A stretch of DNA of 47,965 bases. Source: Betaproteobacteria bacterium. GTDB lineage: Bacteria; Verrucomicrobiota; Verrucomicrobiia; Methylacidiphilales; UBA1321. Position numbers and translations under genes: made by a program. Location: contig CAJCIA010000183.1 in NCBI GenBank assembly GCA_903970275.1, forward strand, positions 1-47,965. Reading direction: 5' to 3'. Under the pieces are notes generated by a model. That model ran no database searches and had not been told where the DNA came from. It was given only the letters and a program-made list of their open reading frames with translations. Shown here one piece after another: positions 15,545-47,965 of this stretch (positions are counted from its first letter, which is position 1; each line of letters opens with the position of its first letter).

Positions 15545-16779
15545 CGCGGCGCGTTGTCGTCACGGGCGTCGGGGCTCTCACTTGCATCGGCCATGAGGCC
15601 AAGGGTCTCTGGAACGGGATTCTGGCGGAGAAGTCGGGCATCCGCTTCACCACGCGATTTGACTCGGCGCCGTATGACGCCAAGTGCACGGCGGAGATCA
15701 ACGATTACGATGCCAACGCGTATTTTCCCCCGCACAAGCTCAAGCGCATCGATCGCTACGCGCAATTCGCGCTCGTCCTGACGCGCCAGGCCTTTGAGGA
15801 CGCGGGGCTCGACTACACCGCGGAGCATCCGCGCACGAACGCGGGCGTCAGCTTCGGCACGGCGCTCGGCGGCATCACCACGGCGGAGTTGACACACGAA
15901 AAGTTTGTCCGGGAAGGCTCCAAGCCGATTCCCGCGGCGCTGGCGCTGCAGGTCTTCGGCGGTTCGGGCCACAGCAACATCGCCATCGCACACGGCCTGC
16001 GTGGCTATGGCACGACCAATTCCAACAGTTGCGCCTCGGGCACGGTGGCGGTCGGCGAGGCGTTCCGCGTCATTCGCGAGGGCCGCGTCGATGTCATGGT
16101 GGCCGGCGCGGCGGAGGCGCCGCTGGCCTCGCTCACCTTTGGCGCATTCGACACCATCAAGTCGATGGCCAAGGAGACCAAGCACCCGGAAACCGCCTGC
16201 CGCCCGTTTGACTCCACCCGCACCGGCTTCGTCATGGGCGAGGGCGGCGCCAGCGTTGTCCTCGAGGAGCTCGAGCACGCGCGGGCACGCGGCGCTCGCA
16301 TTTATGCGGAGGTGCTGGGTTATTCGCTCAACAACGATGCCTATCACATGTCGTCCTCCCTGCCCGAGGGTGAATCGGCTCTCGTCGTCATGGGTGACGC
16401 CTTGCGCGAGGCCGGCCTGCGTCCGGACCAGATCGATTACGTAAACGCGCACGCCAGCAGCACGCCGATGAACGACGGCACCGAGGCGCGCGCTCTTTCC
16501 AAATTCTTTGGCGGCAAGACGCCCGCGGTCAGCGGCACGAAGGCGTATTACGGCCATCCGCTCGGCGCGTCCGGTGCGATCGAGGCGGCCATCTGCTGCC
16601 TCGCCATGCAGAACAACTGGATTCCGCCCACGCTCAACTGCCACGAGCCGTGCGAGGAAGTCGGTCCTGGCTTCGACCTCGTCCGCCTCAAGGGCCGCGA
16701 GGCAAATCTTCGCTACGTCATGAGCAATTCGTTCGGGTTCGGCGGCATCAACGCCTCGCTTGTTCTCGGCCAAATCTAA
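15541..16779 (+). CDS. Beta-ketoacyl-ACP synthase (FabF-like KAS)
   Basis: The protein has 412 residues, normal for KAS II. It condenses an acyl chain with malonyl-ACP. All catalytic residues are present: Cys in NSNSCASGTVAVGEAFRVI, His in VNAHASSTPMNDGTEA, the Lys following it in SGTKAYYGHPLGASGA, and the second His in that same segment. The start is GTG at 15541, which overlaps the previous stop and reads directly into RRVVVTGVGALTCIG, the family N-terminus. The active-site surroundings differ slightly from housekeeping FabF (HASSTP for HGTSTP). With no fabD, fabG or acpP nearby, this suggests a specialised synthase. No acyl carrier protein or chain-length factor is visible in the operon. 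Confidence 0.9.
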   Translation: MTRRVVVTGVGALTCIGHEAKGLWNGILAEKSGIRFTTRFDSAPYDAKCTAEINDYDANAYFPPHKLKRIDRYAQFALVLTRQAFEDAGLDYTAEHPRTNAGVSFGTALGGITTAELTHEKFVREGSKPIPAALALQVFGGSGHSNIAIAHGLRGYGTTNSNSCASGTVAVGEAFRVIREGRVDVMVAGAAEAPLASLTFGAFDTIKSMAKETKHPETACRPFDSTRTGFVMGEGGASVVLEELEHARARGARIYAEVLGYSLNNDAYHMSSSLPEGESALVVMGDALREAGLRPDQIDYVNAHASSTPMNDGTEARALSKFFGGKTPAVSGTKAYYGHPLGASGAIEAAICCLAMQNNWIPPTLNCHEPCEEVGPGFDLVRLKGREANLRYVMSNSFGFGGINASLVLGQI

Positions 16780-18079: not shown

Positions 18080-18109
18080 GCACCCGGCGTCGGGCCGACG
18101 CCGGCTACC
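18080..18109 (-). repeat. REP-like palindrome (right half of pair 2)
   Basis: Read on the minus strand it is GGTAG followed by arms CCGGCGTCGG and CCGACGCCGG. It is identical through foot and hairpin to the copy at 2833-2862. Confidence 0.85.
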
Positions 18110-18718: not shown

Positions 18719-20149
18719 TCAACCCACCGTGAGCTTAAATGGTAAGAATCGTCCTGCACCGCGCAAGACAATTCTGGATGCGCCGGACATGCGCGCCCGA
18801 GGCCACCGGGCCGAGGACCAACCGAGCCCGACAACCACGGCCACATCGAGCTGAAGCGACGCCACCTGGAGCGGGAAATCGACCGCCGCCATGATCGCCA
18901 CGCCGCCCAGCGCCAGCGCAAAACCGAGCGCCCACGCGCGATCCTCACGCCGCCAGTCGCCCCGCCGCAAACCGGCGAGCGAGCGTCCAAGCGCACCGAA
19001 AAAGTAGACGCTCCACGCCGTCGCGCCCACCGCGCCCCACTCGAGAAAGGTCTGCAGATAATCGTCGTGAGCCGCGAGCCACCGGCCGTCCGGCGCGTTT
19101 GCGTCGGAGGCTTGCAATGCGGGAAAGATGACTGCGAAGGTGCCCGGACCTTCGCCAACCCAACCAGCCGCCGCCACGCCGGGAAGGCACGCGCGATCCA
19201 CCTCCAGCCGGTTACTGAGCGTCGCCTCACCGTGCGTTGCGAAGAGACGCTGCCAGCGGTCCTGGCTCACGGCCCAACCCGCGCCCCACGTGATCAGCGC
19301 GACGGCGCCGATGAGCACGAGCGCGATCATCACGCGGCCAGTTGAATGCTGTCGCCAGAGCGCGCGACGCTGCACGCAGAGAAAGACTATCGCGCACGCG
19401 AGTGCGACGAGCGGCGCCGCCTTGGAACCGCAAACCAACACGCCAGCCCCGAGGATCGCCAGCGCGCAGACCGTTGCGGCGCGCCAAATGGGTGACCGGT
19501 CGAGCGCAATCCACGCCGCGGCGCCGGCCACCGGCAGCGCAAGGTTCAGGTACTCGCCCGCGCTCGTCACGTTGCGGTATGTGGCGAAGAAGTAGTCCAG
19601 CCGCCGCGAGCCCCAGAATATATCCGTCGCATCGGTCCACCTTTGCGCGCAACCGAGGAGCACGATGGAAACGGCCACGGCCACCAGCGTCACTGCAAAC
19701 CGCTCGCGCCATACACGCTCCCGGCCGAGTGAGCACGCCACCAGCGCCGCGCCGAGCAGCGCCGTGACGCGCGCCATCATTTCCCAGGATAGATCGCGCT
19801 CCACTGAGCCGGGCAGCCAGTTGACCGTCGGATCGAGCGGGGCGAAGTAGCCGGTCGTTTCCGCAAAGAGTGAGCGGCTGTTCAGCGTGAGCAGCCAGCC
19901 TTGCAGCAAAATTGTTGTCACCGCCGCCATGAGCAGCCACGGCGGCCGATACCGCGCCGCGCCCGGCAGCCAGCACATCGTGGCGGTGAGCAGGAGCAGG
20001 TTTAGTTCATCAATCCCCGCCGGCCACGTGCAGCCCCAGCACCATGGCGCGAAGACCAGCGCGGCCTGGAGCAGCACGCCAGAAAGGCGCCGAAGTTCTT
20101 CCCTGCGCGGCGCGTCTGGCGCGAGAGACCGGCGCACGCGACTGGTCAC
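18719..20149 (-). CDS. O-antigen ligase / Wzy-type membrane protein
   Basis: The protein has 476 residues with about ten or more hydrophobic segments. The signature of the O-antigen ligase (Wzy_C) family is AAHDDYLQTFLEWGAVGATA in a large loop near residue 365, preceded by VGEGPGTFAVIFPAL. Such proteins polymerise or ligate lipid-linked glycans on the periplasmic face. In this operon, behind Wza, Wzc and a priming transferase, polymerisation of exopolysaccharide repeat units is the likelier role than ligation to lipid A. The start is one base after the stop of the upstream gene. It is the last gene of the operon, and no terminator hairpin was seen before the RRM gene. Confidence 0.88.
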   Translation of the reverse strand: MTSRVRRSLAPDAPRREELRRLSGVLLQAALVFAPWCWGCTWPAGIDELNLLLLTATMCWLPGAARYRPPWLLMAAVTTILLQGWLLTLNSRSLFAETTGYFAPLDPTVNWLPGSVERDLSWEMMARVTALLGAALVACSLGRERVWRERFAVTLVAVAVSIVLLGCAQRWTDATDIFWGSRRLDYFFATYRNVTSAGEYLNLALPVAGAAAWIALDRSPIWRAATVCALAILGAGVLVCGSKAAPLVALACAIVFLCVQRRALWRQHSTGRVMIALVLIGAVALITWGAGWAVSQDRWQRLFATHGEATLSNRLEVDRACLPGVAAAGWVGEGPGTFAVIFPALQASDANAPDGRWLAAHDDYLQTFLEWGAVGATAWSVYFFGALGRSLAGLRRGDWRREDRAWALGFALALGGVAIMAAVDFPLQVASLQLDVAVVVGLGWSSARWPRARMSGASRIVLRGAGRFLPFKLTVG

Positions 20150-20150
20150 G

Positions 20151-21599
20151 CTATTCCCCCTTGAAGCTCAGCATGACGTAAAGCGTCTTGAGCGCGATCG
20201 AGGCGTCGAGCAGCAGCGAGTAATTCTTGATATAATAGAGGTCGTACTTGAGCTTCTCGAGCGTGTCGGCGATCGACCGGCCATACGGATAATTCACCTG
20301 CGCCCAGCCGGTGATGCCGGGCTTTACCAGATGCCGAAAGTGGTAGCAGGGAATCTCGCGCTCGTGGACTTCCACGCACCGATCCCATTCCGCGCGCGGG
20401 CCGATGAGGCTCATGTCGCCGCGCAGGACGTTGAAGAGCTGAGGCATCTCGTCGAGACGCATGCGCCGCAGCCAGCGCCCGACGCGTGTAACCCGCCCAT
20501 CCACGTCGCGGGCTTCCAAGCCGGATGGTGCCGCCCGCATGGTACGGAATTTGTAGAGCGTGAATTCGCGGCGATCGCGTCCAATCCGGGTCTGGGAATA
20601 GAGAACGGGACCGGTACCTTCCAGCCGCAGTGCCAGAGCACAAAGCATCAGCAGCGGCGCGGCCAGTACCAACCCGAGGAGGGCCGCGGCGAGATCAAAG
20701 GCGCGCTTGAAGACGCAATGCGACGAGCCGCGCGCGAGGCGGAAATCCTGTCGCAGTGCCCAGAGCGGATCGAGCGGTGCGACCGGAATCTTCCTCCAGT
20801 ATTGCTCGTGAAACGCTTCCAGCGTGAAAATTGGCGCATGGCGAAAATGGGTGCGCACGAGCGTGTCCACGCTGGCAGAAGGCAGCCCGGCCAGCGGCTC
20901 CGCCAGCACCATGGCTTCGACGGAGGGATCGATCAGTTCGTCCAACGCGTCGAGGTCGGCGTCTTCAACCCGGGGCGTGCCGGGACCATCCAGCCATTCG
21001 CCCGCGCGTTCCCCGTTCAGGTCGACTACGCGCAGCGATTGGCGCAGGCAGGCGGCGCGGGTGTCCCGGTAAAATTCCACCGCCGCCGGACCGGTCCCGA
21101 TCACCACCAGCGTCCGTCGCCCCGCATCCTCGCGCGCGACGCGCCCGAGACCCCGGCGAAACACGAGCGTCATTGGCGCAAAGAAAAGAAAGGCGCCCAG
21201 CAAGGAGAGCCGGCTCCGGCTGACCTCCGGCACGGTGGCAAACTGCAGCAGGAGCGCGAGCGCGAAGGCGATCAGGCAGGCCAGCCCGTGCTGAGCCGCA
21301 AAGTCGACCGTCTGCGTGTCGCGCCGCAGATTGTAGCGCTCGGCCGCAACGAAAACGACGCCGATCGAGCCGAGACAAATGCCGATCGGCGCCAGCCACG
21401 GAAGCTCCGCCGCATGGCGCGCGTGGAGCAGGTCCAGATAGGAACAGGCAAAAGCCAGTGCATCGAGGCCAACTAGTACCGCGAGCAGCGCCGGGCCAGA
21501 GCGCGCACTCCTGCGTGCCGGCGCGGGCGCGGGCGAAACGCGGGGAGTCGCTTCAGCCAAAGGCACGCGCGGCAGGACGGGAAGGCGTGCCAGGTGCAT
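20151..21599 (-). CDS. Exopolysaccharide polyprenyl glycosylphosphotransferase (initiating enzyme)
   Basis: The protein has 482 residues. It transfers a sugar-1-phosphate to undecaprenyl phosphate, the first step of repeat-unit assembly. Four to five hydrophobic segments fill roughly residues 35-170. A Rossmann-like CoA_binding_3 region follows (RTLVVIGTGPAAVEFYR). The bacterial sugar-transferase domain runs from about 285 to the end: KRAFDLAAALLGLVLAAPLL (membrane hairpin), YKFRTMR, MRLDEMPQLFNVLRGDMSLI with the catalytic acidic residues, and KPGITGWAQVNYPYG. This is the classic WbaP/WcaJ-type layout; the sugar is not predictable by eye. It sits six bases after the Wzc gene. Confidence 0.93.
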   Translation of the reverse strand: MHLARLPVLPRVPLAEATPRVSPAPAPARRSARSGPALLAVLVGLDALAFACSYLDLLHARHAAELPWLAPIGICLGSIGVVFVAAERYNLRRDTQTVDFAAQHGLACLIAFALALLLQFATVPEVSRSRLSLLGAFLFFAPMTLVFRRGLGRVAREDAGRRTLVVIGTGPAAVEFYRDTRAACLRQSLRVVDLNGERAGEWLDGPGTPRVEDADLDALDELIDPSVEAMVLAEPLAGLPSASVDTLVRTHFRHAPIFTLEAFHEQYWRKIPVAPLDPLWALRQDFRLARGSSHCVFKRAFDLAAALLGLVLAAPLLMLCALALRLEGTGPVLYSQTRIGRDRREFTLYKFRTMRAAPSGLEARDVDGRVTRVGRWLRRMRLDEMPQLFNVLRGDMSLIGPRAEWDRCVEVHEREIPCYHFRHLVKPGITGWAQVNYPYGRSIADTLEKLKYDLYYIKNYSLLLDASIALKTLYVMLSFKGE

Positions 21600-21605
21600 G
21601 GCGTC

Positions 21606-23597
21606 TTACGCTTCCTTTTCTGCGTAGTTCTCGCCGTACTTTCCGCCCGAACTGTAGTGATAATAGTAGGTGCGGTGATACCCGAGGTCCGCGCGCCGCG
21701 GCAGGCGATTGAGCACGAGCCCGACCGGGCGCCGCCCTGCTCCATCCAGCACCCGCACCGCGCGCAGCACCGCCTCGCGCGGTGACGCCGCCGCCCGTAC
21801 GACCAGGCAGACCGACTGAATCTCGCCCACCAGCATCAGCGTGTCGCTCACCGCGTGGATGGGCGCGGTGTCGACCACGATCTGGTCGTAGCGCGTCATG
21901 GCCTCCGCCATCAGCCGCGCGAAGCCGCCGTTGGAAAGCAGCTCCGCCGGGTTAGGCGCCTTGGTGCCGCTGAGGAGAAGATCGAGGGCGGGCAGCGAGG
22001 TCGGGTGCGCATACCGAGGCAGCGGCTGACGCGCGAGAAGGTAATCGACCAGCCCGGTCGATTCGCGCTTTACGCCAAAGATTGCGTGCAGCCGCGGCCG
22101 GCGCAGATCGGCGTCGATCAGCAACGTGCGCTGGCCGCGACCAGCCAGGGAGAGCGCGTAGTTGGCCGCCGTGAAACTCTTCCCCTCACCCGGCAGCGCG
22201 CTGGTGAAAATCACGGATCGCCGTTCCTCGTCGACGCCAATCAACGCCATGGCCGCACGCAGCGAGCGGATCGCCTCCGCCGCGGGTGAATTCCGGTCAG
22301 TAAGAATCGGCAGGTCGCCCGGCAGCTCGGGCGGCAGCTTCTTCTCCTGGCGCTTGGCCGCCTTGCGCCGTGTCATTTCCGGCACCGCGGCGAGCACCGG
22401 CAGGCTGAGGAACTCCTCGGCCTGATCCACCGTCTTGAGCGACCGATCCATGGTGCTGAGCAGGAACGCCAGCGCTATTCCCACGCCCAGCCCCGCGATC
22501 GTTCCCCCGACGAGAAGTTCCAGCGGCTTTTGCAGCACGGGCAACTCGGGCAGCACCGGCTCATCCGCGATCTTGACCGCCGTTTCACTTTGCGCGCTGC
22601 GCAGAACGTCACTCTGGTTCTTCTGCGCGGTAAGCGAGGCGAAGAGCGTGCGCTGCGTTTCCAGGTCGCGCTTAAGCACCTGATATTGCCCGATCATCCG
22701 CGCGCGCAGTTCATCATTGATCCCGACGTTCGGGTCGATCACGACGGCCGGCTTCACTCCGTTGGCTTCGTCGTTGCGCACGATCCGCATCATCTCCGCA
22801 TCGAAGGCGTCCTGCTGCGTTTGCAGGAGGCTGCGCGCCTCGATCATGGCGGGATACTTGTCCTTGTAACGCTGGCTGAGCTGCTCGATGGCCGCGCGCT
22901 GGGCGGCAATCTGGTCGGCGTACTTGGCGAGCAGGTCATACTTCTGGATTTGCCGTTCCTCGTCGCCCAGCGCCGAGCCGAGCCGGTCCGCCTCGCCGAG
23001 CAGGAAGCGGTACGTTTCCTCCTCCGAGCCGCTCTTGTTTTCCATCCGCTCCTTGACGAAATTGTGGAGCAGCGCGGCACAGATGCGTTGCGCCGTGGCC
23101 GGCTGGGTGTGCAGGGCGGAGACCTCGATGAGCAGCGTTCCCTTAAGCAGCGTCACTCGCACTGAAGTCATCAGCGCCTTGATCTTCTCCTGGTCGGTGT
23201 AGGCCGAACCGTCCGGCTTGGGCGGGAAAAGCGAGAGATCGTTCTGCAATTCCGGATCGTTTGCCACCAAGAGAAGAAACGAGGGCCGGACCAAATCCTG
23301 CACAAGGGTGTTGAGCTCCTCCGCCGTGCTCAGGTTCGGCTCCGCATCGACCAGCTTGTCGGGCTGCACCTGCGTGGGCGGCGTGACCTGCAGGCTGCCC
23401 GACGCGCGGTAGACCGGCGCCTGGCGCGCGAGGTAGCCGTAGGTCACGAAAAAACCGACCACCGCCATGAGCGCGATCAGCCACAGCTTTTCCAGCAGGA
23501 TGACAATCACGTCGCCTGCCGTCGTTTCCTCCAGCTCGGGCGGCGGCACGAGGGAACGATTTGGCGCCCAAAGCAGGGGAGGTCGCGAGGCGTGCAT
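21606..23597 (-). CDS. Wzc-like polysaccharide co-polymerase and tyrosine autokinase
   Basis: The protein has 663 residues. It controls chain length and couples polymerisation to export through Wza. The Wzz domain sits at the N-terminus, with the first membrane helix near residues 32-52 (KLWLIALMAVVGFFVTYGYL). A long periplasmic coiled region follows, then the second membrane helix near 365. The cytoplasmic BY-kinase has Walker A SALPGEGKSFTAANYALSLA near 465, Walker A' TLLIDADLRRPRLH, and Walker B in DQIVVDTAPIHAVSD. A C-terminal tyrosine cluster (YHRTYYYHYSSGGKYGENY) is the autophosphorylation tail. Everything needed for kinase cycling is present. It lies four bases after the Wza gene. Confidence 0.94.
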   Translation of the reverse strand: MHASRPPLLWAPNRSLVPPPELEETTAGDVIVILLEKLWLIALMAVVGFFVTYGYLARQAPVYRASGSLQVTPPTQVQPDKLVDAEPNLSTAEELNTLVQDLVRPSFLLLVANDPELQNDLSLFPPKPDGSAYTDQEKIKALMTSVRVTLLKGTLLIEVSALHTQPATAQRICAALLHNFVKERMENKSGSEEETYRFLLGEADRLGSALGDEERQIQKYDLLAKYADQIAAQRAAIEQLSQRYKDKYPAMIEARSLLQTQQDAFDAEMMRIVRNDEANGVKPAVVIDPNVGINDELRARMIGQYQVLKRDLETQRTLFASLTAQKNQSDVLRSAQSETAVKIADEPVLPELPVLQKPLELLVGGTIAGLGVGIALAFLLSTMDRSLKTVDQAEEFLSLPVLAAVPEMTRRKAAKRQEKKLPPELPGDLPILTDRNSPAAEAIRSLRAAMALIGVDEERRSVIFTSALPGEGKSFTAANYALSLAGRGQRTLLIDADLRRPRLHAIFGVKRESTGLVDYLLARQPLPRYAHPTSLPALDLLLSGTKAPNPAELLSNGGFARLMAEAMTRYDQIVVDTAPIHAVSDTLMLVGEIQSVCLVVRAAASPREAVLRAVRVLDGAGRRPVGLVLNRLPRRADLGYHRTYYYHYSSGGKYGENYAEKEA

Positions 23598-23600
23598 GGA

Positions 23601-24539
23601 TCAGAAAAGAGTCTCGGGCACGGTGATCGTGTCTTCGTTCTGGATCAGAAGCCGTTGCGTGCCGGCGCTCTTTTGCATGGCGCGCGCATCGACCGTCTGG
23701 ACGGTCTCGCGGCCGTTCTCCGTGCGCTTGAGCAGCACGTGCGACGCGTTGGCCAGCCGCGTGAAACCACCGGCCAAGGCGATCGCGTCGGTGAGGTAAA
23801 CCGGTCGGTCGTCGTTTACGTCGTAATCGCCCGGCCGGTTGATCTGGCCCAGCACGGTGAAATGCCGTTTCGGCAAAATCGCGATGGTGATGGCGTCATC
23901 AGGCTTCACCTCGTAGGCGTCGGCTGCACCGTTGCCGATGGCGGCGTTCACCTGCGTCACCACCGGCTTGTCGTTCACCACCCGTCGCACGCTGACGTGC
24001 GCGGCGTCGGAGGTCGGCAGCAGGCCGCCCGCCATGGCGATCGCGTCGCTGAGCATGAGCGCGCCGTGCTCAGGATAGCTGTAGAGACCGGGCGTCCGCA
24101 CCTCGCCCATGACGTTGATCTTTTTCTTCGCGTACGAGACGATGCTCAGGCTGACGCGCGGGCTGACGAGGTAATCCTTGGCCAGCCCGGCGCGAATCGC
24201 CTCCGTCGCCTGGTCGACCGAAAGCCCGGCGACCATCACCGGCCCGAGCAGCTTCATCTCGAACTGCCCGTCCTTGCGCACGATCGCGTTGGTCGTCAGG
24301 TCGGGCTCCCGGAAAACGATCACTTCGATCACGTCGTCGGGCTGGAGCAGGTAATTCGGATCGATCGGCGCCAGCGTTCCACCGCGCGGCAACTCGTCAC
24401 CCGCGGCTGGCGCGCTCGCCGAGGAAGTGGAACCCGGGTCGGCGGCCGCAGGCGGCGCACTGTCCGGCGCGATGGCCTGGGCGTGCAGCCGCGCACCACC
24501 AGCTGCCACGACCAAGAGGAAAAGAATAAGCGCGCGCAT
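23601..24539 (-). CDS. Wza-type polysaccharide export protein (SLBB domains)
   Basis: The protein has 312 residues from the ATG at 24539, which begins a clear signal peptide (MRALILFLLVVAAGGARLHAQ). The longer open frame upstream has no signal. The Poly_export domain is YLLQPDDVIEVIVFREPDL and KDGQFEMKLLGPVMVAGLS. Two SLBB repeats follow: INVMGEVRTPGLYSYPEHG and FTVLGQINRPGDYDVNDDRP. There is no lipobox cysteine at the cleavage site, unlike E. coli Wza, so membrane attachment may depend on the barrel protein encoded just upstream. It forms the periplasmic and outer-membrane exit for the glycan. Confidence 0.93.
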   Translation of the reverse strand: MRALILFLLVVAAGGARLHAQAIAPDSAPPAAADPGSTSSASAPAAGDELPRGGTLAPIDPNYLLQPDDVIEVIVFREPDLTTNAIVRKDGQFEMKLLGPVMVAGLSVDQATEAIRAGLAKDYLVSPRVSLSIVSYAKKKINVMGEVRTPGLYSYPEHGALMLSDAIAMAGGLLPTSDAAHVSVRRVVNDKPVVTQVNAAIGNGAADAYEVKPDDAITIAILPKRHFTVLGQINRPGDYDVNDDRPVYLTDAIALAGGFTRLANASHVLLKRTENGRETVQTVDARAMQKSAGTQRLLIQNEDTITVPETLF

Positions 24540-24540
24540 A

Positions 24541-25785
24541 TCAATAGGTGAACCGCACCCGGGCTCCCACCTGGTTGTCGACGAAGCCATTGATCGTCGC
24601 CGAGATGTTCCGCCGGTATTGGTAATAGCCGCCGAGCGACCACCAATCGTTGGCCTGGTAATCGAGCGCCGCGCGCAGGGTGAAGTAGTCGTAGTCGAGA
24701 TCGTTTGCCTCGTCGGCGAGGTTGTCCTCGTAATGGGCGTTCTCGTAGCTGCCGGAAAGCGTCGCCCACAGCTTCTCCCGAAAACCCTGCGTCACCGAAA
24801 ACGAGGTGCCGGTGGCCAGGTAATCCTGCCCGAAGAACTTGGCCGAATAGTTATACGACCGGTAGGCGCTCACCGTGATGTTCGTATCGTCCCACGGGTT
24901 GTAGGTGAAGCCGGCGGAGAACACCGGGGTCACCGTGGTTTCCGACGATCCCTGCGTCTGCCGAAACTCGCCGCCCGCCGTGGCGGTAAAGCTCAGCTTT
25001 TCCGTGGGCGTGTAGACGACGCGTCCATTCACCTGCTGGAACGTCTGGTTCGGGCCCTCCAGATCCGCCGCGCCGCCGACCACGCCGAAGCCCAGCGTCG
25101 TCTTCGGCATGATTTCGTAGTTTAGATAAAGGCTGCCCGTCCATTGCTTGGAGCCGAAGCCCTGGTCGTAATCGTCGATGTCCTGCTGCGCCCGCACCGA
25201 GGCGCTCAGTTTCGCGCCAATGATGTAGTCGAAATTCACCACCGTGCGGTATTCCTGCACCTTGACGAGGTCGCCCTCGTCCGGTGCGCTGTTCTGCACC
25301 GAGGCGTATTGCTGGCTGACGACCAGGTCGCAGCGCGACCCGTGGTAGCCGTAAACAAACGAGCCGGTCTGTTCGAACGTGTCGTTGCCCGAATGATCCT
25401 GATAGACCACGAACCCCGGCGCGTAGGTCACCTGCACCGAGTTATCGACGCCCGTGTTGCGCGCCGAGTTGTAGGTGATAAAGGGAACGATGTCGTAGAT
25501 GAAATCGCCCGTCCGTCCCGCATCGCCCGGCTGGATATAGATATTGTCGTCGTAATAACCCGCGAGCGTCGCGCCGAACGTGATGGGGAGCCGCGTGTTA
25601 TCCTGGGCGGCGGCATCGGTCACCGCTCCCGGCTCCAGCGCGCGGTCGGGCGATTGCAGCGCGCGCGGCACCACGGCATCGGTCGGGCCGGCCATCGGGC
25701 CGCTCAGTTCCTGCGCGAGCAGCACGGAAGTTCCGAAGGTGAGCGTCCAAAGCATGGTGAGCACAGGGGCGGGAAGGGTTGTCAT
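24541..25785 (-). CDS. Outer-membrane beta-barrel protein of the exopolysaccharide operon
   Basis: The protein has 414 residues from the ATG at 25785, chosen because it starts a signal peptide (MTTLPAPVLTMLWTLTFGTSVLLAQ) and overlaps the upstream stop (ATGA). The mature part is made of alternating short strands rich in Tyr, Asn, Asp and Thr, such as TLAGYYDDNIYIQPGD and SASVRAQQDIDDYDQGF. It ends in NQVGARVRFTY, with the terminal aromatic expected of barrels inserted by Bam. It resembles the barrels found in Wza/Wzc-type loci of other phyla and may act as the outer-membrane pore for polymer, complementing the non-lipidated Wza. Role inferred from context. Confidence 0.85.
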   Translation of the reverse strand: MTTLPAPVLTMLWTLTFGTSVLLAQELSGPMAGPTDAVVPRALQSPDRALEPGAVTDAAAQDNTRLPITFGATLAGYYDDNIYIQPGDAGRTGDFIYDIVPFITYNSARNTGVDNSVQVTYAPGFVVYQDHSGNDTFEQTGSFVYGYHGSRCDLVVSQQYASVQNSAPDEGDLVKVQEYRTVVNFDYIIGAKLSASVRAQQDIDDYDQGFGSKQWTGSLYLNYEIMPKTTLGFGVVGGAADLEGPNQTFQQVNGRVVYTPTEKLSFTATAGGEFRQTQGSSETTVTPVFSAGFTYNPWDDTNITVSAYRSYNYSAKFFGQDYLATGTSFSVTQGFREKLWATLSGSYENAHYEDNLADEANDLDYDYFTLRAALDYQANDWWSLGGYYQYRRNISATINGFVDNQVGARVRFTY

Positions 25786-26606
25786 TGTGGGGGCGAAACC
25801 ACGAGGCGCTGGGGTGGCCGATGAATGGGCGGGTCGCCGACGTCCGGTCCGTTGCTCGCCTTGCCATTGCCCTCCGCGACATGAGGCTCGAGGCCGGCGA
25901 GCAGGCAGGTCTGCGTCCCGGCCGCCAGCGCTGAAAGCGGCAGCATCTGCAGCCTCCCGTCCACGTTGATCACCCCCACCTGGCCATTGCCGATGAGCAC
26001 CTGCGTGCGGTCCGGCTGGAGAGGCTGCAGCGCGGGAACGGCTGCCGGCGTTGCCCCGTAGATCGGCTCGTCCTCCGTGAGGGGGCGAGCGTCGCGGTCC
26101 GCGTGGGTGGAGACGGCCAGGCTCCCGCGCGCAACGTAGAAATAGGTGCCGCCGCCATGCATGCACATCACGCATTGGCCGTTCGCCATCGAGGCCTGCC
26201 CGTGCCTCAACCCGACGTGGTAACAATGAGGCGGGCGGGCGGCGAGCTTGATGGTGACTTGCAGCTTCCCCTGCTGAAGATGGAAGTTGGAACGCAGGTT
26301 CATCCCCGGCCCCTCCATGCGGCAGAGATGATCGTCGCCGTCGTAGGTCAGCGTCCCGGTCTCGCCCAGCCGCAGTTCCGAGCCGTCGAAGGCGCTGAGA
26401 AAAAGAACGCCGTCGTTGCCTGCGGAAAAGCGACCGGGCCCGAGCTTCTGACCGGCCTTGACCGGCTGCATGGGCAGCGCGTTCCCGGCGCCGTAGAGAA
26501 CCTGTCCTTCAACCCCGGTGACCAACACCTGCTGCGCCCGGACCGGAAACAACAGCCCGAGCGTAACCGCCGACAGGCAAAGAAAAAGGACGCGGTGACA
26601 ACTCAT
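25782..26606 (-). CDS. Secreted FecR-like domain protein
   Basis: The protein has 274 residues with a signal peptide (LFLCLSAVTLGLLFPVRAQQ). The following VLVTGVEGQVLYGAGNALPM and LFLSAFDGSELRLGETGTLT match the FecR fold: a G-x-V opening, a charged turn, then DGSxLRLG. There is no membrane helix after the signal and no sigma factor nearby, so it is not an anti-sigma regulator; periplasmic FecR domains of this kind occur with export and surface-layer systems. The C-terminus is proline-rich (DPPIHRPPQRLVVSPPQ). Its ATG lies inside the end of the glycosyltransferase frame, a 98-bp overlap that is unusually long. Function unknown. Confidence 0.75.
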   Translation of the reverse strand: MSCHRVLFLCLSAVTLGLLFPVRAQQVLVTGVEGQVLYGAGNALPMQPVKAGQKLGPGRFSAGNDGVLFLSAFDGSELRLGETGTLTYDGDDHLCRMEGPGMNLRSNFHLQQGKLQVTIKLAARPPHCYHVGLRHGQASMANGQCVMCMHGGGTYFYVARGSLAVSTHADRDARPLTEDEPIYGATPAAVPALQPLQPDRTQVLIGNGQVGVINVDGRLQMLPLSALAAGTQTCLLAGLEPHVAEGNGKASNGPDVGDPPIHRPPQRLVVSPPQ

Positions 26607-27810
26607 CGGCTGTCTTGGGGAATCGGCGGGCGTGTCCCAGCGTTAAGGTCAATTTTTCGAGGCAGCGCGGCTCCTGCCAGCGCGATAAATCGGCCTCGGC
26701 GGGCAGATGGCCGGCACCCAGCCGGGCGCGCCGGCGGATTTCGCAGGCCAACGGCACGCGGTCGCCATGACAGAACGATGCGGCCGAATCGCCCAGACCC
26801 GCCTGGTCGATCACGTCGGCGACAGGGCTTTTCTCCGGACCGATGTGGAGGAACGGCCGTCCCGTCGCGAGGATGTTATAGACCTTGCTTGGATGCAGCA
26901 GGCCGTTGAAGGCGTCTCCCATCACGACCACGTGCAGGTCGGCCGCGGAAAGCACCGCCGCCAGCTTCTCCCGCGGCAGATAGGGAATGAGCGTGACGTT
27001 GCGCGCCGCGTGCTCCTGCAGCGTGTTCCATTGCGCGCCGCCGCCCACCCAGCAGAAGTGAATGTGCGGGTCGTCGCGCAGCGCATCGGCCGCCGCCAGC
27101 AGCGTCTCCATCGAATGACACGCGCCATGGTTGCCCGCACACATCACCACAAACTTCCGATCCCAGCCTCGCGCGCGGCGCATGGTCGCGCGGCCCACCG
27201 CATCAAATCCTATATCCGCCTGCATCCAGAGCGGAATCACCTCCACGCTTTCCGAATCAGCGCCCTGGAAGAAAAGCGCGCGACGCATGGCGTCATCCAG
27301 CGCGATGATGCGGCTGGCCCGACGCAAGCTCCAGCGCGATACCGCCCGCGCCACCCGGGCCGTGATGCCGTTCTCCGCCAGCAGGCCGGCGGCAATCGCC
27401 ACCTCGGGGTGAAGGTCCATCGCCCAGATGACCAGCCGCGCGCCGCGCCATTTGGCGAGCACCGCCGCCACCGCCGGCAGCAACGGCGGAGTAGTCAACG
27501 CCACAATCACGTCGGGCTTGGGGCCGAACAGGCCGCGCAGCAAAATGGCGGCGAGAAACTTGACGAAGCCCACGACGCGGTCGGTGCGCGTCCGGCCGCA
27601 CGGTGTGGCGCTGCCCACGCGCACGACCCGCACGCCCGCGATCATTTCCCGCGCGGGATGAAACTTGTGGCCATCCTCATAGGCGCGCCGGCTGGCCATC
27701 ACGGTCACGTCGTGCCCCTCGCGCGCGAGATGCTCCGCCCAGCGGCCCAGGTACTGGCTGGTCGCCACGGGGTCGGGCAGATAGGTCTGATTGAGGAGGA
27801 GAACCCTCAC
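26509..27810 (-). CDS. GT4-like glycosyltransferase (WcaI/WbuB type) with a doubtful 3' end
   Basis: The open frame has 433 residues. It has the GT-B layout: MRVLLLNQTYLPDPVATSQY at the start, LVIWAMDLHPEVAIAAGLL in the N-domain, VMCAGNHGACHSMETLL opening the donor domain, and PSKVYNILATGRPFLHIGP near residue 325. It probably adds a sugar to the lipid-linked exopolysaccharide unit. The domain seems to end near LEKL, but the frame runs on about 50 residues into the FecR gene. A five-base A run (plus strand T at 26653-26657) sits exactly there; one base fewer would give a stop immediately, near 26649. The tail may therefore be an artefact or a real frameshift. It is the first gene of the operon and the only sugar-adding transferase in it. 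Confidence 0.85.
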   Translation of the reverse strand: MRVLLLNQTYLPDPVATSQYLGRWAEHLAREGHDVTVMASRRAYEDGHKFHPAREMIAGVRVVRVGSATPCGRTRTDRVVGFVKFLAAILLRGLFGPKPDVIVALTTPPLLPAVAAVLAKWRGARLVIWAMDLHPEVAIAAGLLAENGITARVARAVSRWSLRRASRIIALDDAMRRALFFQGADSESVEVIPLWMQADIGFDAVGRATMRRARGWDRKFVVMCAGNHGACHSMETLLAAADALRDDPHIHFCWVGGGAQWNTLQEHAARNVTLIPYLPREKLAAVLSAADLHVVVMGDAFNGLLHPSKVYNILATGRPFLHIGPEKSPVADVIDQAGLGDSAASFCHGDRVPLACEIRRRARLGAGHLPAEADLSRWQEPRCLEKLTLTLGHARRFPKTADELSPRPFSLPVGGYARAVVSGPGAAGVGHRG

Positions 27811-27841: not shown

Positions 27842-27862
27842 GCAGAAACTCGTTGTCACCTC
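27842..27862 (+). repeat. 21-bp direct repeat, left copy
   Basis: The sequence GCAGAAACTCG followed by TTGTCACCTC occurs here and again, identically, at 31228-31248. It lies in the gap between the divergent glycosyltransferase and fucosidase, about 50 bases before the fucosidase start. The two copies bracket the fucosidase and sialate esterase genes. Confidence 0.85.
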
Positions 27863-27911
27863 TCCGCCAAACCCGTTTACTCGGCGTAATCGCGCTCAAT
27901 TCCGTTTAGAC

Positions 27912-29543
27912 GTGAAAACTTCCCGACTTCTCCTTGGCTTGGTCCTGACCGGCGCGGCTTCCTCGCTCCTGGTCGCGCAAATGGTTTATCCGCCGGAGAC
28001 CCACGCCATCCCGATCCCCAAGATGGAGGACCTTCCGCTGGCACCCGGGCCGTTCCAGGGCACCGCGGAATCGCTCAAGCAGTTTCAATGTCCCGAGTGG
28101 TTTCGCGACGCCAAGTTTGGCATCTGGGCGCACTGGGGGCCGGCGGCGGTTCCCGGCGACGGCGATTGGTACGCACGGCAGATGTATATCGATCAAAACC
28201 GCTACGGACATAATGCTTACCAGACCCACCTGAAGTTGTATGGCCCGCCGTCCAAAGTGGGCTACAAGGACATTCTCCCCCTCTGGAAAGCAGAGAAATG
28301 GGATCCGGACCGTCTGATGGAACTCTATAAGGCGGCCGGGGCGCATTACTTTTTCGCTCAGGCGGTGCACCACGACAATTTCGACAATTGGAATTCCAAA
28401 TATCAGAAATGGAATTCCGTGAACATCGGTCCGCATCGCGACATGGTAGGCACCTGGCAGGCGGCCGCTCGAAAACAAGGTCTGCCTTTCGGCGTCTCGG
28501 AGCATCTGGGACACAGCTTCACTTTCATGCAGTCGTCGCACGGCGTGGATAAAACCGGGCCTTACGCCGGCATTCCCTACGACGGGGCGGACCCGGCGAA
28601 TTGGGATCTTTACCAATTGCCGGCGAACCCCCGCGACACCGGTTGGTACAGCAACGATCTGCGCTGGGCGCAGGAATGGTACGCGCGCATCTACGATCTC
28701 GTCACCACCTACAAGCCCGACCTTCTCTATAGTGACGGTGGCCTGCCCTTTGGTGAAGCGGGCCGCAACATCGTGGCGCAACTCTATAACCAAAGCATCC
28801 AGGCGCACAACGGGAAGCAAGAGGCGGTCTATTGCTGCAAGAAGAACTATCACGGCACCGATTTCATCGATGGTTCGTGTGTTGAGGACCTGGAGCGCGG
28901 AATGATGTCGGACATCCAGCCGCTGCCCTGGCAGACCGACACGTCCACCGGTGAGTGGTACTGGGTTCCGCACGACCGCTATCGCTCGAGCAGCGAGGTC
29001 ATCCACACGCTCGCCGATATCGTGAGCAAGAACGGGAATCTCCTGCTCAACGTGACGCTGCTCCCGGACGGCAGCCTCGCCCCGGAAATGGAAAACTTCC
29101 TGCATGAGATGGCCGACTGGATGAAGATCAATGGCGAGGCGATTTTCGGCACGCGGCCATGGACGATTTTTGGCGAGGGATCCACCGCTTTCCGGGCGGG
29201 GGCTTTTCACGAGAACTTCAAGTTCACGCCGCAGGACATCCGTTTTACGCGTAAAGGCGACGACATCTATGCGATCACCCTCGGTTTGCCCACCGGCCAG
29301 GTGATGATTCGCTCCCTGGCGCAGGGCTCGGCGCTTGTCAAGGGAGAGCCCAGCTCCATCAGCCTGCTGGGAAGTGCGGAGAAGCTTCAGTGGAATCGCA
29401 CCGATCAGGGCATCATTATCACCCTGCCCGCCACGCTGCCGTGCGCGTCGTCGCTTTGTTTTAAAATTTCAGGTTTCACCACCGTAGCCGACCTGACTCC
29501 TCAGGCCCTGCAAGCGGCAAAGGACCAGCTCAAGAAACTATAG
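27912..29543 (+). CDS. Secreted alpha-L-fucosidase (GH29)
   Basis: About 543 residues from the GTG at 27912, which begins a signal peptide (KTSRLLLGLVLTGAASSLLVAQ). The frame is open to 27825, but that extension has no signal and overlaps the direct repeat. GH29 signatures: FRDAKFGIWAHWGPAAVPG, AGAHYFFAQAVHHDNFDNW, and YKPDLLYSDGGLPFGEAG, whose Asp is the expected nucleophile. Next comes DIVSKNGNLLLNVTLLPDGS. The enzyme releases terminal fucose from glycans outside the cytoplasm. It sits 61 bp before a sialate O-acetylesterase on the same strand, forming a small host- or algal-glycan utilisation pair. No transporter or fucose catabolic gene is nearby. Confidence 0.92.
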   Translation: MKTSRLLLGLVLTGAASSLLVAQMVYPPETHAIPIPKMEDLPLAPGPFQGTAESLKQFQCPEWFRDAKFGIWAHWGPAAVPGDGDWYARQMYIDQNRYGHNAYQTHLKLYGPPSKVGYKDILPLWKAEKWDPDRLMELYKAAGAHYFFAQAVHHDNFDNWNSKYQKWNSVNIGPHRDMVGTWQAAARKQGLPFGVSEHLGHSFTFMQSSHGVDKTGPYAGIPYDGADPANWDLYQLPANPRDTGWYSNDLRWAQEWYARIYDLVTTYKPDLLYSDGGLPFGEAGRNIVAQLYNQSIQAHNGKQEAVYCCKKNYHGTDFIDGSCVEDLERGMMSDIQPLPWQTDTSTGEWYWVPHDRYRSSSEVIHTLADIVSKNGNLLLNVTLLPDGSLAPEMENFLHEMADWMKINGEAIFGTRPWTIFGEGSTAFRAGAFHENFKFTPQDIRFTRKGDDIYAITLGLPTGQVMIRSLAQGSALVKGEPSSISLLGSAEKLQWNRTDQGIIITLPATLPCASSLCFKISGFTTVADLTPQALQAAKDQLKKL

Positions 29544-29604
29544 GCCCAATTGTCTGGTCCGTGCAGTTTGACTCCTGAACAAGATCCTCGACTCCAATCA
29601 CCTC

Positions 29605-31203
29605 ATGAAACAATCATCTGCTCCTTTCATCATCCCCGCACTGCTTGGTTTTTTGGCGGCTTCTCTGGTACCCGGCACCAGCCGCGCCGATGTGCGGCTG
29701 CCCGCCATCTTTGGCGACCACATGGTCCTGCAGCAGGAAGCGACGCTTCCGGTCTGGGGCTGGGCCAACCCTCAGGAAAACGTGACCGTGACCTTTGGCA
29801 GCGAGAAGGCGCAAGCCACGGCTGGCGCGGACGGCAAGTGGCGGGTCGATCTCCCTGCCCTTCCCGCGGGAACGCCGGCCGGAACACTGGTCGTCGCCGG
29901 GAGCAACACGATCACGATCAACGATGTGCTCGTGGGCGAGGTCTGGGTTTGTTCCGGCCAATCGAACATGGAACTGCCGCTGGACAAGACAGACCATGCA
30001 AGTGAGGCGGCAAGCCAGGCGACGGACGATCAGCTTCGGATCTGCCAGGTGCCGGCGAATCTGGCGCTGGCCCCGCGCGACGATTTCTCGCCCGTCCCCC
30101 CGGTTGCGGACACCTGGGAGGTTTGCACGCCGGAGACGGTTGCCCACTCCTATGCCGTGGCCTATTACTTTGGCAAGAACCTCCGCACCACGCTGCAGCG
30201 GCCCGTGGGGCTGATCGAGGATGCGTGGGGTGGCACCCCGGCCCAGGTCTGGACCGATCCGGCGACCCTGCAATCCGACCCTGATTTTCACCATTATGTG
30301 GAAGCGCAGCAGAAGATCGCGGCCAAGTATCCCGGCGGGGACGCCGACTTTGCCACGCAGTTGGCCGCGCAGACGAAGCCCGGGGCAAAGCCGGGCGGTG
30401 CGCTCGTCAAAGGCGGATTTGGACCCACGCTCCCAAGCAGCCTTTTCAACGCGATGATCAATCCGGTCATCCCCTTCGCCATCAAGGGCGTGATCTGGTA
30501 CCAGGGCGAGGATAACGCCGGGCCCGCGGCGGCGCAGGAGTACGCCAAGTTATTCCCGGCGATGATCACCGGCTGGCGGACGTTGTGGAAGGAAGGGGAT
30601 TTCCCGTTCCTCTACGTCCAGCTGGCGAACCTCGCGCAACGCTATAGGGACAACTGGCCCCTCCTGCGCGAGTCGCAGCTTAAGACACTCTCCTTGCCCA
30701 AGACCGGCATGGCAGTGACCATCGACATTGGGACGCCCTACTACATTCACCCGCCCGATAAGGCGGACGTTGGCCTGCGTCTCTCGCTGCTGGCGCGGCA
30801 CATCGCCTATGGCGAAAACGTGGTGTGCTTCGGGCCGCTCTACGATTCCATGAAGGTGGAGGGCACCGGCATTCGCATCAGCTTTCGGCCGGACACTATC
30901 GGCGGCGGGCTGGTAATCGGCAGTTCGCCGTGGAAGGACCCGAAGGCGACGACGTTCCCTTCGACCACGGAGTTGCAGGGCTTCATGATCGCGGGCGACG
31001 ACAAAAAGTGGGCCGAGGCGCAGGCCACGATCGATGGCAACAGCGTGGTGGTCTCGAGCCCGCAAGTGCCGAACCCCACCGCGGTCCGGTACGCGTGGGC
31101 GCAGAGTCCGCTGGCCAACCTCTATAACAAGGACGGCCTTCCCGCCTCGCCCTTCCGTACCGATACCTGGGATCCCAAGAGTTCGATCGATCCCGCCAAG
31201 TAG
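29605..31203 (+). CDS. Secreted sialate O-acetylesterase-like protein
   Basis: The protein has 532 residues with a signal peptide (FIIPALLGFLAASLVPGTSRA). The family opening LPAIFGDHMVLQQEATLPVW is followed by a jelly-roll-like region, then the SGNH-type block VWVCSGQSNMELPL with the catalytic serine. Further landmarks are GLIEDAWGGTPAQVW, GVIWYQGEDNA and DIGTPYYIHPPDKADVGLRL, with the His-Pro-x-x-Lys pattern of the family. Such enzymes remove acetyl groups from sialic acids or from acetylated plant and bacterial polysaccharides, so the annotation should not be taken as proof of sialic acid use. It is probably co-transcribed with the fucosidase. Confidence 0.9.
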   Translation: MKQSSAPFIIPALLGFLAASLVPGTSRADVRLPAIFGDHMVLQQEATLPVWGWANPQENVTVTFGSEKAQATAGADGKWRVDLPALPAGTPAGTLVVAGSNTITINDVLVGEVWVCSGQSNMELPLDKTDHASEAASQATDDQLRICQVPANLALAPRDDFSPVPPVADTWEVCTPETVAHSYAVAYYFGKNLRTTLQRPVGLIEDAWGGTPAQVWTDPATLQSDPDFHHYVEAQQKIAAKYPGGDADFATQLAAQTKPGAKPGGALVKGGFGPTLPSSLFNAMINPVIPFAIKGVIWYQGEDNAGPAAAQEYAKLFPAMITGWRTLWKEGDFPFLYVQLANLAQRYRDNWPLLRESQLKTLSLPKTGMAVTIDIGTPYYIHPPDKADVGLRLSLLARHIAYGENVVCFGPLYDSMKVEGTGIRISFRPDTIGGGLVIGSSPWKDPKATTFPSTTELQGFMIAGDDKKWAEAQATIDGNSVVVSSPQVPNPTAVRYAWAQSPLANLYNKDGLPASPFRTDTWDPKSSIDPAK

Positions 31204-31227
31204 CCGGCGCTGCATTCGCGGGCGGTC

Positions 31228-31248
31228 GCAGAAACTCGTTGTCACCTC
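31228..31248 (+). repeat. 21-bp direct repeat, right copy
   Basis: It is identical to 27842-27862. It lies between the esterase stop and the nuoI start, 16 bases before the nuoI ATG. Its TTGTCA could serve as a -35 box (TACGAT follows at 16 bases), but that would put the transcription start inside nuoI, so a promoter role for nuoI is unlikely. Confidence 0.85.
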
Positions 31249-31264
31249 GTCCGCTTCCATTACG

Positions 31265-31792
31265 ATGATCGGCATGGTCGTGAACCGCCCGACGCTCTCG
31301 CGGTGGGAAAGCATGTATCTGCCGGGCATCCTCATCGGCCTCAAGATCACCGCGGGCCATTTCATCGATCACCTGCTCGGCCGCAAGAAGGTGACCATGC
31401 AGTACCCGGAGGAAAAGTGGCCGATGCCCGACGGCTATCGCGGCGCGCCCACGCTGGTGAAGGACGAGGAAGGCCGCGAGAAATGCGTCAGCTGCCAGCT
31501 TTGCGAATTCGTCTGCCCGCCGCGCGCCATTCGCATCACGCCCGGCGAGATTCCGCTCGATTCGCCCTACGCCAAGGTGGAAAAGGCGCCAAAGGAATTC
31601 GACATCGACATGATCCGCTGCATCTACTGCGGGCTGTGCGAGGAAGTGTGTCCTGAGGAAGCGATCTTCCTGCTCAAGGATTACGCCATCACCGGCCTGA
31701 CCCGCGCCGAGATGGTCCATGACAAGGACAAGCTTTACGAACTCGGCGGCATGCTGCCCCGGCCCATTCACAAGTGGGACGCAAAGAAGTAA
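31265..31792 (+). CDS. nuoI: NADH-quinone oxidoreductase subunit I
   Basis: The protein has 175 residues. This subunit carries the two tetranuclear clusters (N6a, N6b) in the connecting arm of complex I. Both ferredoxin motifs are complete: CVSCQLCEFVCPP with cysteines at about 74, 77, 80 and 84, and CIYCGLCEEVCPE at about 119, 122, 125 and 129. The N-terminal amphipathic part (YLPGILIGLKITAGHFIDHL) touches the membrane. I start at ATG 31265; ATG 31274 is an alternative. It opens a six-gene run of membrane-arm genes, but nuoA-H are not upstream, which is unusual. Confidence 0.94.
   Translation: MIGMVVNRPTLSRWESMYLPGILIGLKITAGHFIDHLLGRKKVTMQYPEEKWPMPDGYRGAPTLVKDEEGREKCVSCQLCEFVCPPRAIRITPGEIPLDSPYAKVEKAPKEFDIDMIRCIYCGLCEEVCPEEAIFLLKDYAITGLTRAEMVHDKDKLYELGGMLPRPIHKWDAKK

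Positions 31793-45085: not shown

Positions 45086-47965
<2,880 letters not shown>

Follow-up and report, generated by a model that had tools for sequence, protein, structure and literature searches.

Segments of DNA flanked by direct repeats are known from several systems. Insertion sequences and transposons produce target-site duplications, in which exact short direct repeats flank the segment and a single copy stands at the empty site; a duplication of 21 bp is longer than most of those made by insertion sequences. The islets placed by tyrosine recombinases lie between attL and attR, which are also direct repeats, and leave the target whole. Genes may also be gained without mobile-element genes, by illegitimate recombination or end-joining capture, and neither route requires that 21 bp be duplicated at the two ends. 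A 47,965-nt stretch of DNA (the window) from a draft genome of an uncultured Verrucomicrobiota genus was analyzed here, in which a GH29-type gene and a SASA-type carbohydrate esterase gene lie between identical 21-bp sequences upstream of nuoI. The comparisons described below suggest that this is probably a lineage-specific 3.37-kb insertion into the nuoI promoter with a 21-bp target duplication. The literature was queried by subject rather than by the name of the organism, covering end joining and illegitimate recombination, deletion between repeats, fucosidases and promoters of Verrucomicrobiota, promoter capture and islets; among the titles listed, none dealt with this locus.

The 21-bp repeat and the enclosed genes

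The exact direct repeat GCAGAAACTCGTTGTCACCTC stands at 27842–27862 and 31228–31248, with both copies on the plus strand and a spacing of 3386 bp. The earlier note had reported identical copies starting at these two positions, and all 21 of 21 letters agree. No other exact direct repeat in the window reaches 21 bp at a spacing of 0.5–10 kb. The whole draft genome (2,926,007 bases, 271 contigs, 87% complete) contained the 21-mer twice when up to three mismatches were allowed, both times at this locus, and no third copy was found in these 2.93 Mb. A motif recurring upstream of many unrelated genes, as the earlier note had considered, was thus not encountered. A 26-bp exact repeat, which is GC-rich, palindrome-like and dispersed, also occurs twice in the window, at 2837–2862 and 18084–18109 (15 kb spacing).

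When the window was simulated 60 times with a second-order Markov model, the longest exact repeat averaged 16.2 bp, with a maximum of 20. The real sequences used for comparison were 89 loci (1.31 Mb; five duplicates had been removed from 94 loci beforehand), seven of which contained exact direct repeats of at least 21 bp at 0.5–10 kb spacing. These amounted to 19 pairs; two loci with constantly spaced repeats accounted for 11 of them, and one simple repeat accounted for four. The length of the repeat by itself is only mildly unusual, and since real loci carry comparable repeats, it is the position rather than the length that carries the argument. Gapped extension of the 21-mers into their flanks gave a score of 0 upstream and a downstream score matched by 6.35% of 2000 shuffles; therefore, the repeat shows no clear extension beyond 21 bp.

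Two recognizable genes, both on the plus strand, lie in the 3365-bp segment between the copies (27863–31227), as the earlier note had described. The first (27912–29543, with a GTG start picked by eye) contains a GH29 domain (PF01120; 297.6 bits against a cut-off of 25.2; E value, 2e-88). Among solved structures, its best matches are to an alpha-L-fucosidase and to exo-alpha-L-galactosidases, which score almost equally (PDB 7snk and 7ljj), and therefore both activities fit this gene, which is called the fucosidase gene below for brevity. The second (29605–31203) contains a SASA domain (PF03629; 63.5 bits against a cut-off of 24.8) and resembles the solved structure 9h4u (E value, 3.5e-113). A signal peptide is apparent by eye in both products. 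Seven of the nine other overlapping ORFs between the copies (at least 100 aa, the nuoI frame aside) were scanned and had no Pfam match. No transposase, integrase or other recombinase gene was found among the Pfam-scanned genes and these seven ORFs, which agrees with the earlier note, and no integrase was found beside the segment, where the scanned neighbors are exopolysaccharide and nuo genes.

The nuoI promoter region and the two copies

The gene to the right of the segment is nuoI (31274–31792, plus strand; TIGR01971, 119.4 bits). It is followed by nuoJ- and nuoK-type genes according to Pfam, and then by three antiporter-type subunits, which we take from the usual nuo gene order to be nuoL–N. 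The nuoH gene was located on a separate contig of the draft (G000:C246, locus L054; 10397–11521), where the next ORF lies on the opposite strand and is not nuoI.

A consensus promoter scan upstream of nuoI returned one site, matching the consensus at 9 of 12 positions: TTGTCA (31239–31244), 16 bases, and TACGAT (31261–31266, plus strand), the latter ending 7 nt before the ATG at 31274. The core CTCGTTGTC was found upstream of nuoI in four of the five other congeners in which nuoI was found (G001, G004, G005, and G007). It belongs to a conserved block consisting of CTCGTTGTC, a 16-base spacer, TTACGAT and, 7–9 bases further on, a start codon; this block is shared by the present genome, G004, G005, and G007. 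Congener G001 has the core with a different −10 region, and G006 has lost the core and retained TTACGAT. In the wider family, the corresponding sequence is CTCGTTGC in G008 and G011 and TCGTTGC in G009. When the pattern CTCGTTGTC-N(13–20)-TTACGA was searched in eight genomes of the genus, five had one match each, lying at nuoI in the present genome, G004, G005, and G007 and elsewhere in G001; with the spacer fixed at N16, each of these five again had a single occurrence, at the same places. The conserved block and the consensus site together indicate that the right copy (31228–31248) is the upstream half, including the −35 box, of the predicted nuoI promoter. Comparison with the relatives also makes ATG 31274 the likely start of nuoI, from which the nuoI message would be nearly leaderless.

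The left copy (27842–27862) duplicates this −35 region 49 bp before the likely fucosidase start. The two copies match at 21/21 positions, and the counterpart of the right copy in congeners matches it at only 16/21 (G001), 15/21 (G004 and G007) or 14/21 (G005). At nine of the 21 positions, one or more of these four congeners differ, and positions 1 and 4 differ in all four. Therefore, the left copy appears to have been duplicated within this lineage; the sharing of lineage-specific letters points to a duplication after the species split, rather than to a selected site.

The left copy thus puts a −35 box upstream of the fucosidase gene, which it may or may not drive. By eye, its TTGTCA is followed after 17 bases by TTTACT; the promoter scan accepted no consensus −10 site after the left copy (0 sites), TTTACT included. 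If the left copy drives the fucosidase gene, an arriving operon would have gained host control in one step. A fuller version of this idea is that an insertion without a mobile element split the promoter by duplicating its −35 half, wiring the enzyme pair to complex I control with the nuoI promoter whole. The segment would then be a reversible glycan-use islet, which recombination between the two copies could remove cleanly, at a junction occupied by other genes in other species. We consider this combined version unlikely.

The corresponding junction in related genomes

The gene to the left of the segment (26509–27810, minus strand) is the first gene of an exopolysaccharide block and was annotated as a WcaI-like glycosyltransferase from Pfam (PF13579/PF13439), synteny and an NCBIfam match below its cut-off (NF007640; 137.3 bits against 276). 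Comparison of the locus in relatives, which the earlier note had proposed, revealed a cassette-free junction. In congeners G004 and G007, the glycosyltransferase gene adjoins the nuoI promoter with no fucosidase or esterase gene between them by tblastn (approximately 143 and 117 bp between gene matches, respectively), and the 3365-bp segment is missing. Judged by gene order and promoter, the junction in these two other species of the genus is the empty site.

In G001, the same border genes lie 1.5 kb apart with one 360-aa ORF between them, which has a GT-D-like match below the cut-off (25.1 bits against 27). The presence of a different ORF between the same borders suggests that this junction takes up genes. 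No such glycosyltransferase gene was found in the 9.6 kb covered upstream of nuoI in G005, the contig of G006 ends 140 bp upstream of nuoI, and nuoI was not found in G002 and G003. Thus, the seven other genomes of the genus comprise two empty junctions, one with another gene, one with another border and three that are unreadable (G002, G003, and G006), and none of the readable congeners has the fucosidase–esterase pair at the junction. As for direct repeats of at least 12 bp in the junction flanks, G005 has one 12-mer and G001 has none.

The pair was also absent from the 9–10 kb upstream of nuoI in family genomes G008 and G009 and from the 0.6 kb covered in G011. Across 80 nuoI loci of named genomes, many of them short and from a collection that may omit records of the window's own genome, no fucosidase or esterase match (E value ≤ 1e-15) was found in the stretches covered, and a glycosyltransferase was found in two, namely, G004 and G007. 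In another Verrucomicrobiota metagenome-assembled genome (L142), a 48-bp exact repeat stands upstream of nuoI at 1682 and 3844, 2.2 kb apart; both copies are outside the listed ORFs, and the enclosed genes, one of them Hsp20-like by eye, differ from the fucosidase and esterase.

The left flank of the segment is not cleanly ancestral. The gap between the glycosyltransferase gene and the promoter core is 39 bp here, compared with 103 bp in G004 and 76 bp in G007; therefore, either the left flank also changed or bases were lost in the event. A second variable stretch at the locus is the exopolysaccharide block at 18719–26606 (Wzy-like, sugar transferase, Wzc-like, Wza-like, and porin-like genes), which has no match in G004, where the counterpart of the gene at 16760 and the glycosyltransferase gene are 0.7 kb apart.

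Origin of the segment and comparison with known systems

The earlier note had suggested a test of the composition of the two genes. The fucosidase gene has the lowest G + C content of 24 ORFs (0.591), and the esterase gene (0.639) is ordinary for the window (0.641), as is the codon usage of both genes, which falls within the range of their neighbors. A foreign origin is therefore only weakly indicated by composition and codon usage. The most deviant codon usage of the 24 ORFs, with the lowest GC3 (0.57), belongs to the ORF at 45215–47155, which has no Pfam match and is perhaps a non-gene or foreign. No close donor was found for either gene among 387 genomes of the phylum (E value cut-offs, 1e-60 and 1e-100; up to three candidates scored per genome). 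The best long matches among those scored were 60% identical for the fucosidase, to a paralogue in the same genome, and 52% for the esterase. Esterase relatives are common, with a match in 11 of 12 family genomes, and partial matches of up to 62% over approximately 250 residues in congener G002 leave room for an origin of the esterase within the genus itself. In a plasmid collection, 15 of 72,556 records matched, none over more than 80% of the query, and the best matches listed covered 3–10%. A tRNA gene as the insertion target was rejected, since the window contains no tRNA; Rfam at gathering scores also gave no match in the window.

The earlier note had proposed either insertion or duplication of a glycan-use cassette. 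Insertion is favored by the empty junction in G004 and G007 and by the absence of the pair from every readable congener junction. Duplication of a cassette already in the genome is not supported by the sequences, the nearest fucosidase paralogue being only 60% identical in protein; the contig carrying that paralogue (G000:C165) starts with a partial LigD-polymerase match. The genome also holds a GDP-mannose 4,6-dehydratase match over the cut-off, and together with the below-cut-off WcaI-like glycosyltransferase, this suggests that the organism may make GDP-fucose. That the enzyme pair trims the organism's own polysaccharide is a guess.

The older gene order in the genus would have been the exopolysaccharide glycosyltransferase gene on the minus strand, a short gap, the nuoI promoter and the nuoI operon. 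The 3.37-kb segment with its two apparently secreted enzymes would have entered the promoter just after the −35 box, with duplication of 21 bp of the target, such that the right copy would leave the nuoI promoter complete and the left copy would leave a −35 box ahead of the incoming genes. A 21-base staggered break, fill-in and joining to a captured fragment would give the observed structure, and illegitimate recombination would be an alternative route. The insertion is most likely fairly recent and without a mobile element. We infer that the direction of the event was gain, which is also more economical than loss.

Several other explanations were weighed. The earlier note's alternative, a regulatory site shared by the fucosidase gene and nuoI, would make the two 21-mers one binding site selected ahead of two co-expressed operons. 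Its promoter component stood, since the promoter to which the right copy belongs is conserved across the family, and the closeness of the left copy to the fucosidase start also suits it. The remainder did not: only two copies were found in the draft at up to three mismatches, rather than a genome-wide site, identity between them extends over the positions that vary among congeners, and no consensus −10 follows the left copy, which makes a selected site distinctly improbable. An older cassette lost from the relatives would explain the single promoter of G004 and G007 through recombination between the repeats, but losses would be needed in G004, G007, and G001, the two copies must have remained identical over a period in which 5–7 of the 21 promoter positions diverged between species, and none of the regions covered in the genus and family has the pair at nuoI; we regard such a history as highly unlikely.

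Placement by a site-specific recombinase acting in trans, with the 21-mers as attL and attR, would agree with direct repeats of about this length flanking the segment and with an intact target, as is established for such islets. With no recombinase found inside, no third 21-mer found in the draft and no tRNA in the window, its probability appears very small. Equally small is that of an assembly artefact in which the contig was misjoined through the 21-mer. The draft is in 271 contigs, and 21 is a common assembler k-mer, but the contig would have to be misjoined twice through a single 21-mer, both borders are sensible gene borders, and neither the nuoI promoter nor either enzyme ORF is disrupted. 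A lineage-specific insertion with target duplication is retained as the probable explanation of the locus.

This probable insertion provides a clear snapshot of gene entry without a mobile element, in which the genes at the borders, the empty site, the duplicated target and the promoter that survived are all readable. It is a small, tidy genome change, an ordinary kind of event in unusually clear form. Compared with an insertion sequence or transposon, the segment has no transposase found inside and lacks clear inverted repeats at its termini. The sequences at 27873–27892 and 31188–31207, which lie 10 bp from the left end and 20 bp from the right end of the segment, agree at 15 of 20 positions when read as an inverted pair; the right-hand one overlaps the 3' end of the esterase gene. 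A score this high was reached by 6 of 500 shuffles and by 57 of 1000 randomly drawn window stretches of 3365 bp, and therefore no weight was given to the pair. A worn-down transposon is a possible origin. Compared with attL/attR islets, no integrase was found inside, and the target is a promoter rather than a tRNA gene. Excision between the copies, the reversibility raised in the earlier note, may be possible.

Staggered-break capture with end joining or illegitimate recombination appears likelier than a transposon as the mechanism. The locus resembles those routes in its gain of genes without mobile-element genes, and the genome contains Ku (PF02735; 136.9 bits) and LigD-polymerase (TIGR02778; 267.9 bits) matches, both over the cut-off, which make end joining possible and nothing more. 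The genus also has other glycan-use loci with both enzyme classes, which are direct neighbors in G003:C176 and are separated by 1.7 kb in G001:C2. Those loci are divergent, the pair of G003 being 48% identical to the present one (43% by tblastn), whereas the pair described here is in tandem and lies at nuoI.
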